Shown: positions 21,901 through 24,900 of the stretch, one piece after another
Numbering within the stretch: position 1 is the first letter of the stretch
Layout of the letters: every line of letters starts with the position of its first letter
From: Neoarius graeffei
Taxonomy: Eukaryota > Chordata > Actinopteri > Siluriformes > Ariidae
Length of the DNA stretch: 64,000 nucleotides
Direction: 5' to 3'
Assembly (NCBI RefSeq): GCF_027579695.1
Contig: NC_083572.1
Coordinates: forward strand, 13,848,915-13,912,914
Position numbers and translations under genes: made by a program
The notes under the pieces: generated by a model
The model's input: only the letters and a program-made list of their open reading frames with translations
Database searches by the model: none
Told to the model about the DNA's origin: nothing

Positions 21901-24900
21901 TTTCCACAATGATTGTACAGGATCCCTCCAGGATTCTTGACTTGTCAATTGCAAGCAAAAGTAAAAATGTTTACCTCCAATCTTCTCCTTTTTGCTTGAG
22001 CGTTGCTGCTCCATTTCTTCTTTGACTGCTTGATTTTGTTTCACGTGCACAATCCACTCTCTCCGCCTCTTCTCCTCTTTCGGAAAAAGCCAACCCTCTT
22101 GCTCTGCCTCTTCTCCTCTTTCAGAAAAAGCCAACCCTCTCGCTTTGCCTCTTCTCCTCTTTCGGAAAAAGCCAACCCACTCGCTCCGCTTCTTCTCCTT
22201 TTTCAGAAAAAGCCAACCCACTCGCTCCGCTTCTTCTCCTCTTCCGGAAAAAGCCAATCCACTCTCTCCGCCTCTTCTCCTCTCTCGGAAAAAGTCAACC
22301 CTCTCGCTCCGCCTCTTCTCCTCTTTCGGAAAAAGCCAACCCTCTCGCTCCGCCTCTTCTCCTATCTCGGAAAAAGCCAATCCTCTCGCTCCGCCTCTTC
22401 TCCTCTTTCGGATAAAGCCAACCCTCTCGCTCCGCCTCTTCTCCTCTTTCGGAAAAAGCCAACTCACTCCGCCTCTTCTCTTCCGGAAAAAGCCAATCCA
22501 CTCTCTCTGCCTCTTCTCCTCTCTCGGAAAAAGCCAACCCTCTCGCTCTGCCTCTTCTCCTCTTTCAGAAAAAGCCAACCCTCTTGCTCTGCCTCTTCTC
22601 CTCTTTCGGAAAAAGCCAACCCTCTCGCTCCGCCTCTTCTCCTCTTTCGGAAAAAGCCAACTCACTCCGCCTCTTCTCCTCTTCCGGAAAAAGCCAATCC
22701 ACTCTCTCCGCCTCTTCTCCTCTTTCGGAAAAAGCCAACCCTCTCGCTCTGCCTCTTCTCCTCTTTCAGAAAAAGCCAACCCTCTCGCTCTGCCTCTTCT
22801 CCTCTTTCAGAAAAAGCCAACCCACTCGCTCTGCCTCTTCTCCTCTTTCAGAAAAAGCCAACCCTCTCGCTCTGCCTCTTCTCCTCTTTCAGAAAAAGCC
22901 AACCCACTCGCTCCGCCTCTTCTCCTCTTCTGGAAAAAGCCAATCCACTCTCTCCACCTCTTCTCCTTTATTGGAAAAAGCCAACCCACTCGCTCCGCCT
23001 CTTCTCCTTTTTCGGAAAAAGCCAACCCACTCACTCCGCCTCTTCTCCTCTTCCGGAAAAAGCCAATCCACTCTCTCCGCCTCTTCTCCTCTCTCGGAAA
23101 AAGGTAAAAACTTCTTCCTGAACCAGTCCCGTTGTTACAGTTCACTGCACAACAATAAAGCATGGTTTTCTTTGGAAATTCCTGAACACACGTCTGCACT
23201 CACGCCAAATGGCAATGCAAGTAAATGGAAGTGGACTCAACTCAAGCAGTTTGTTTGTCTTGAATGATGTCACTCGCCGAGTGCTCATGAAAATCGCCGA
23301 ACAGAAATTCGCCGCAATCCGCACTAACTTATTTTAATTATTACTTATTAACAATACTTCTTGGGACCAGAAGAAAATTACAGAGGGTTTTTTAACATAT
23401 AAAAGTTTCAAATGTGCATAAATTGAAAACCGTTGCCTATGACCTTGAAAGAAAAATAAAGGTGTCTTACCCTCGGGCCAGGTTTTTGGAGGCCCGTTGG
23501 CAGGAGGAACAGCATTCGGACCAGACGGGGGCACACTGGGACCACTCAACACTGCGGAGCATCCAGAACACACTGAACCTTTACTTAAGTCACCACAGTG
23601 GACCGCAGTGAACCACAATGCTCAGTGTGCACTTAGTGCGTATTATTGTTATGTCCCTCTAGTATATATATACACACAGTACACTAAATAAAATAAGCAA
23701 CTTCAAATGTGCGTCCCATTCAGTGCCTTAAATAAGTATTCACCCCTCTTAAACTTTACCATATTTTGTAGTATTAGAACCTGGATATGAAATGGAATTA
23801 ACTGGGAATATATGTCATAATACAAAAGAGAATGTATTATGATAAGGGGGAAAAATCAGTACAATTAGCAAAATTATTTCCAAAAAAACCCCCATAAAAT
23901 TTGTGATTGCATAAGTTTTCACCCCCATAGTTGTGAAACTAGTTACCATGAAACCCCAGAGTGAAGCATGGTGTAGGTTGCATCATATTTTGCAGATGCT
24001 TTTATTTAATATCAAATAGGAAACTAGTCGTGATTTAGATGAACCAAGCCAGAGCCAAACACAGGGCAGTCCTTGAAGAAATCCTGTTCCAGTCTGCTGC
24101 AAGAGACCGGAAATTGCAGTGGAGGTTCACATTTAAACAGGACAATGATCCTAATTCAGTGTTCCCCCTAAGTTTACTGGTTTGGGGGGAGGGGGTGTTG
24201 CTGGATGAGGATGCTCACCTGCAGGACCCCTCCCCACAGCTCCCATTACAAAGCATTTGGACCTGAACAAACAATTAAAGGAGTCATATTTAAGTCTTCA
24301 CATTTATTTTAGAACAATAATTAGAACGATTTTTGCAACAGAATTGCACTCCTGGTTTTTTTGGACCTTAAAATGTGTGTGTGTGGGGGGGGAGCACCCT
24401 CCCACCCAATATAATTGTCAGGGAAACACTGTAATTCCTAAGTGGTTCAAAGCCAAGAAGCTAAATGTATTAGAATGGACCGGTCAAAGCCCAGACTTTG
24501 ATTGAGAATCTGTGGCAAAGCTTGAAAATTTCTGTTCATTCATAGTCGCTATTCAATCAGACAAAGCTTGAGAAGTTTTGCCAAGAAGAATGGGCAAAAA
24601 TATCCGTATCAAAATAATCTTTTAATTCCAAATTGTAACATCAGAAATGTGGAAAAGCAAGGGGGTGAATTCTTATGCAAGGGGCAGTAGTTATTGAACA
24701 TTTTTTCATATTTGCATACTCATATTTTGATATTTTTAATATTTACAGTGTATAGCATCAGAACTTTGCTCACCATGCCCTCGACTATAGTTGGGTCCCA
24801 GAGGTCCTGGACCTGTACCTGGCCCTCCTCCTCCACCAGGTGGCAGACTTGGCATGGTCTGGCCTTGCTGCATGCCTGGCATGGGCCTCTTGCCTTGTAC

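Follow-up and report, generated by a model that had tools for sequence, protein, structure and literature searches.

Within the 64,000-nucleotide stretch analysed here (the window), two exons match human BRG1/SMARCA4, one at 24739-25170 (residues 124-255) and the other at 17876-18205 (residues 289-380). A Kolobok-like transposable element sits between them and is therefore intronic, in agreement with its original assignment to a smarca4 intron. The element and its parts are the following:

21246..21249, no strand: TTAA target-site copy, on the 3' side of the element in the sense of the THAP gene (window sequence and copies)
21250..23445, minus strand: Kolobok-like element, apparently non-autonomous, of 2,196 bp, with ends AGGTCATAGGCAA / TTGCCTATGACCT (inverted repeats and copies elsewhere)
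21532..21627, plus strand: coding fragment ending in PYMYEPMAN at the other end of the element, on the strand opposite to THAP (no Pfam match)
21955..22039, minus strand: what is left of the THAP exon's 3' end, in an out-of-frame reading (QNQAVKEE...); the lower bound is approximate (comparison with the intact L047 and L008)
22040..22049, minus strand: TGCACGTGAA, the last exon-colinear bases before a deletion junction between 22040 and 22039 (intact-copy comparison)
22050..23103, minus strand: tandem array of 26 units with a 41-bp period (TRF and unit parsing)
23105..23163, minus strand: opening part of the THAP exon, from the ATG to ...SGRSFY, lying upstream of the array (reading frame and Pfam)
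23446..23449, no strand: the other copy of the target site, which reads TGAA and so differs from TTAA at one base (window sequence)

Host element and tandem array

Inverted repeats (21245-21266 and 23429-23450) enclose the array region. Copies at other places in the genome end in TTAA, AG(C/G)TCATAGGCAA on one side and TTGCCTATGACCT, TTAA on the other, with TTAA present at 21 of the 24 5' ends and 23 of the 26 3' ends searched, counts that omit a 25th 5' match because it is unrelated sequence in L010. Kolobok elements are characterized, in the portion of the account drawn on here, by insertion at TTAA, ends that start with AG, and a THAP domain that includes an AVPTIF box (PMC6004289). All of these features were found: the ends begin with AG(G/C)TCATAGGCAA; the TTAA target-site duplication is present in the copies (TTAA / TGAA in the window copy); and the intact copies L008, L045, L046, and L101 match PF05485 at 66.6-70.4 bits, with C2CH, the P-W-F residues, and an AVPTIF-like box, AVPTKF or AVPRKF. 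The window copy retains just the first half of the THAP domain. Frames of at least 150 aa were read by eye in the four intact-THAP copies for which both ends were located (L039, L045, L046, and L047; 1.3-2.1 kb); no transposase was noticed among them, and the copies are therefore treated as non-autonomous. The family apparently consists of TTAA-type, Kolobok-like, non-autonomous DNA transposons; the TTAA targets and the THAP exon, as in Kolobok elements, back the original naming of the element.

Several neighbouring features are also worth recording. The element lies about 20 bp from a GTAAGA splice-donor-like site (window 23446-23472) closing a putative small exon, 23469-23543 (...GPPKTWPEG), which we take to resemble SMARCA4; a 25-aa query from it had no match among solved structures (E up to 1). 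The opposite-strand fragment, MSESD.D.EV...PYMYEP, occurs both in the window (21532-21627, plus strand) and in the intact-THAP copy L047 (2616-3077, minus strand), with no Pfam match for either. The same smarca4 intron holds a Tc1-like transposase (DDE_3 and HTH_Tnp_Tc3_2) at 19411-20461, a close relative of which is present in the L048 stretch. Two further repeats of the window are a three-copy tandem repeat with a period of 466 (31715-33105, 95% matches) and an array with an 84-bp period and 7.7 copies (57860-58503), which by eye resembles C2H2 zinc-finger codons.

The only array called by TRF at the site spans 22050-23103, with a period of 41, 26.0 copies, and 89% matches. Parsed unit by unit on the minus strand it comprises 26 head-to-tail units, 24 of them of 41 bp, one of 37 bp, and one of 34 bp, and so has the head-to-tail units of roughly 10-100 bp that make a minisatellite. 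A 29-bp core pattern, searched over the whole window with up to 3 mismatches, gave 24 matches, every one within the array, and none of 100 dinucleotide shuffles of the window contained a match. TRF, unit parsing, and the shuffle control thus confirm the 41-bp minisatellite of the original prediction; its limits, given there as 22045..23103, are correct at the end and 5 bp off at the start, and the estimate of about 25 copies becomes 26 on counting. Mean unit similarity is raised just slightly at some lags, and certain unit types occur in the array more than once.

The consensus unit is free of all six stop triplets. The actual array carries, on the plus strand, 11 TCA, one CTA, and one TTA (stops on the minus strand) as well as one TAA, so the earlier description of an array open in several frames on both strands is partly correct. 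The longest frames, 372 aa on the plus and 293 aa on the minus strand, follow from the base composition together with a unit length that is no multiple of 3; they are no evidence of coding, and a coding role for them was rejected.

The THAP exon and the origin of the 41-bp unit

The minus-strand frame adjoining the window array is a THAP domain (Pfam PF05485; it scores 27.6 bits, the cut-off being 23.9, and covers positions 1-40 of the 87 in the profile), and the array unit on that strand consists of 13 codons plus GG. Eight THAP loci were cut in a first family search, and one of them, L008, encodes an intact relative; the first comparison took in seven such single-copy exons, one of which, L047, has a stop codon. 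When the genome was searched with the L008 exon, 40 of 40 scored hits (the best 40 of 1,406 candidates) were single contiguous alignments of 272-288 bp, a count that is no rate, the search ranking by undivided match and so favouring single copies. Six intact-THAP hits (L061, L063, L064, L072, L080, and one not cut) lie within 0.2 Mb, at G000:C1:97264545-97442063, perhaps as a local duplication. The segment is also single in P0001, a relative from beyond the assembly (58% identical, 111 aa). These sequence comparisons support derivation of the array unit from the FP...W segment of the THAP exon, as had been proposed: intact relatives in the genome carry the segment once, and the alignment to intact THAP elements that had been suggested as a check found it present in a single copy in all the scored hits.

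The exon part missing from the array copies (L047:1630-1790) was used as a further query; the best 40 of 499 candidates were scored and the upstream stretch was read for 20 of them (places 2-21). Fifteen of these 20 are single-copy, and five contain tandem units despite the presence of the second THAP half. The five undeleted array copies, L084/L101, L085, L088, L091, and L093, have 2-5 units each, and in all of them the last unit runs on into the exon. The simplest, L084/L101, has one in-frame 63-bp duplication within an open frame of 139 aa; the THAP match of L101 (70.4 bits) falls into two stretches, its alignment showing a clean 21-residue insertion. The duplicated 63 bp are 21 codons of the THAP exon, from LFP to the second conserved Trp, and meet at the junction GGTTGGC/TTTTTCC. 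L085 combines two 63-bp units with one 41-bp unit and the last unit; L093 has four 41-bp units before the last and L091 two; L088 lacks a 63-bp duplication, a single 41-bp unit being followed there by a shortened last one.

All 11 unit junctions in the five copies read TTGGCTTTTT(T)C, at a position where the single-copy exon has TTTTTACCTTTTTCC; the bases preceding TTTTTCC in the single-copy exon are TTTTTACC. The 41-bp units keep the TTGGC/TTTTTC junction and lack 22 bp of the 63. Since GGC precedes TTTTTCC in the 41-bp unit and not in the single-copy exon, this unit carries the junction of the 63-bp duplication minus 22 internal bp. A second junction form, GGTTGTTTTTT, is found in deleted copies, 17 times against 154 for the GGC form (29 copies). 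The least derived duplication found thus looks to be the in-frame one of 63 bp, with 41 bp secondary, in place of a 41-bp unit taken straight from the exon as previously assumed. The '13 codons plus two bases' of that earlier description stand as far as the two bases, GG, are present; from the sequence they are now read as a relic of the second Trp codon.

The 41-bp unit might instead stem from a separate direct duplication, independent of the 63-bp one, as could be argued from L088 with its 41-bp unit and no 63-bp duplication. This would call for an intact single-copy exon with GGCTTTTTCC at the unit-junction position; the GGC before TTTTTCC is that of the 63-bp junction, where the single-copy exon has TTTTTACC, and such a second origin is regarded as unlikely. 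As to how a 63-bp unit could be shortened, its best self-match is an imperfect repeat (the REWI and REGW codons, 22 bp apart). This self-similarity is equalled in 83 of 300 shuffles and, not being significant, was discarded as proof of the shortening and kept as a guess.

Deletion, spread, and growth of the arrays

After the last unit, the deleted array copies read GTGAA/ACAAAATCAAGC, a deletion junction common to the complete copies of the first sample, with one base different in L012 (GTGAAGCAAAATC). The two points joined there are 155 bp apart in L047. As 155 is not a multiple of 3, the deletion shifts the frame, and QNQAVKEE is the out-of-frame reading of the intact KIKQSKKK; REWIVHVK is joined directly to it across the deletion, and the original frame in L041 and L048 meets a TGA before the QNQAVKEE stretch. 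The exon was originally thought to resume past the array; what lies there is the 155-bp deletion, which takes away the CxxH half of the THAP zinc site, followed by this out-of-frame remnant.

A pattern across the deletion junction (up to 3 mismatches) has 1,316 places in the genome (655 + 661), and the reversed pattern none. A tree of about 300 bp was built from 83 rows: 51 for the single-copy form (from 47 distinct places, four of them represented twice), three undeleted array copies, and 29 deleted array copies, with L085 and L093 left out as too short and L013 and L023 as lacking the 5' side. One cluster holds 24 of the 29 deleted array copies (local support 0.735), with L029 beside it; L031, L033, L034, and L048 are placed in other parts of the tree, and the undeleted array copies, three in number, do not cluster together. 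A single origin of the deleted array form that has spread is likely from these sequences, on a tree that is weak at about 300 bp.

The abundance of this form raises the question of selection for the array, for example for a repeat peptide or for binding sites used in transposition. The deletion junction occurs at 1,316 places, and the search for the deleted half gave 499 unscored first-look candidates, counts that do not allow a strict comparison; the simplest duplication preserves the frame. Against this, the dominant 41-bp unit shifts the frame, the deletion eliminates half of the zinc site (CxxH), and copies have anywhere from 2 to about 150 units, so that maintenance by selection appears distinctly improbable. 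The preferred reading is that the array hitchhikes with the element and would have no function of its own.

How widely the array occurs was seen by searching the assembly (G000; 2.34 Gb, 38 contigs) with the 3' exon flank: out of 1,587 candidates at first look the best 40 were scored, and the 30 loci that were cut include that of the window itself, a sample biased to copies resembling the window's 3' flank. Both exon flanks are present in 28 of the 30 loci (27 besides the window), each with at least two units at the same exon position; the other two, L013 and L023, are without the 5' side. Unit number in these 28 complete copies runs from 2 (L010 and L024) to 26 (the window), varying between copies inside the one assembly, and the units are mainly of 41 and 63 bp, with at least one of about 63 bp in 21 of the 28. 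A 29th complete copy from the same search, L048, agrees with the others. Median flank divergence over the 30 loci is 6.2%. A 35-base unit pattern matches 7,991 places genome-wide (3,432 + 4,559) and its reversed control none.

The window array, the longest of the 28, had been read as an expansion at this locus, a single-copy exon of this one element having grown into a 41-bp minisatellite within the smarca4 intron. Its length, its zero 63-bp units, and the unit types recurring inside it fit such an account. An array stands at the same place in 27 other complete copies, 21 of them having at least one unit of about 63 bp, the deletion junction is common to them (L012 one base off), and other loci carry far longer arrays, of about 150 units in one case and about 100 or more in another. 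Origin at this locus only was accordingly rejected by the genome copy search and is very improbable. The array is, with high confidence, a feature of the element family, of which the window copy is a mid-sized, all-41-type example, and a local change in its size after insertion is likely.

Two dense clusters of unit-pattern matches correspond to much longer arrays. In L107 the 41-bp repeats run from 1071 to 7451, about 6.4 kb, with about 156 copies by TRF (two rows) and 152 units parsed; the array is bordered by the THAP start and the 5' terminal repeat at one end and by the deletion junction at the other, and a search allowing up to 3 differences gave no 3' terminal repeat. L108 has about 100 or more units over at least 4 kb and extends past the stretch fetched, with the THAP start and 5' terminal repeat on the side read. 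The complete copies read thus span 2 to about 150 units. When each L107 unit is compared with the one 37 positions further along (a block of 1,572 bp), 56.5% are identical, against a maximum of 6.9% in 1,000 unit-order shuffles with lags to 39; in L108 unit identity at lag 17 is 20% against a shuffle maximum of 7.0%. Both are therefore long arrays with higher-order repeats, as expected of a nascent satellite, and the blocks imply that runs of many units are copied together inside an array, as in satellite DNA. Among 41-bp units classified by script, 52 of 125 are C-T-G mosaics at three sites; one crossover does not give such units, and their presence calls for conversion between units, or for repeated events, in addition. 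A second repeat array was seen near the L047 copy, outside the element from about 3679, with several open frames (PPGAAVPAPCLS...).

Proposed history and relation to known systems

Taken together, a minisatellite very probably born in the THAP exon of the element has been carried and spread by the transposon family. The forms involved are observed in extant copies of one assembly, from which all copy comparisons come; their temporal order would be as follows. An intact THAP exon with the segment once would have acquired one in-frame 63-bp (21-codon) duplication within a complete THAP frame, and a 22-bp loss, which may have used the imperfect REWI/REGW repeat within the 63-mer, would then have given the out-of-frame 41-bp unit. 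Arrays would have formed in exons still complete before the 155-bp deletion took out the rest of the THAP domain and the deleted, array-bearing derivative spread. The arrays would then have come to differ in length and arrangement, with as many as about 150 units and with higher-order blocks, presumably growing by slippage, by unequal exchange of unit blocks, or by repair copying during transposition. This order rests on coexisting forms, and exchange between copies could have put an array into an undeleted exon.

Tandem repeats within miniature elements have been reported before. Hikosaka and Kawahara in 2004 reportedly found Xstir repeats in the Xmix MITE of Xenopus. Xmix, according to the excerpts cited, is a T2-MITE of the Kolobok type carrying the Xstir repeats (PMC6004289, PMC12628747), and there, too, an internal segment of a TTAA-flanked Kolobok-type MITE is tandemly amplified and dispersed with the element; the present case differs in that the unit is traced to THAP codons and that single-copy, one-duplication, and undeleted array copies are extant, the coding status of Xstir being left aside. 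miDNA4 of Xenopus tropicalis (Scalvenzi and Pollet; PMC12628747) likewise has a variable number of internal monomers, its longer arrays being thought to yield satellite DNA, but it is described in the relevant part of that account as a Tc1/mariner-type MITE whose repeat is thought to have been captured and not to come from an exon of the element. Capture of a pre-existing satellite, the published model for miDNA4 as presented in a review (PMC12628747, as far as the cited part goes), is hardly credible here, the 63-bp unit being colinear with the single-copy coding sequence of intact copies and the one-duplication copy L101 keeping its reading frame.

Birth of the unit within the exon has partial parallels in other elements, as far as the cited excerpts describe them. 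In Tetris (PMC4079207) and the oyster Helentron CgHINE (PMC9659126) a DNA transposon supplies and spreads tandem repeats, but these are other kinds of element, and those of CgHINE are described as central repeats. PROsat and Pvc 20, derived from LINE ORF2 (PMC9659126), share a satellite unit taken from the coding sequence of a mobile element, but they come from retrotransposons and not from a DNA transposon, and no stepwise series is seen in the account given there. Among the literature matches listed, no THAP-derived minisatellite is described in titles or abstract openings, and a literature search for satellites from transposase coding sequence found nothing. Tandem repeats on MITEs, Kolobok-type ones included, are thus already known; what sets this case apart is the extant path from a single-copy coding exon to a nascent satellite.

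The origin of tandem repeats is usually deduced from end products, and here the steps coexist in one genome, from the single-copy exon to higher-order blocks, so that the steps and rates of satellite birth could be open to direct measurement. In a DNA transposon the source of a dispersed repeat can be a coding exon, and not just the ends or the untranslated parts. Whether the family acts as a mobile satellite factory, each jump or gap repair re-dealing unit number and order, is a tentative idea that we think somewhat doubtful; if true, one coding exon would have seeded more than 1,000 separately evolving arrays in one living genome, some of them satellite-like with higher-order structure.
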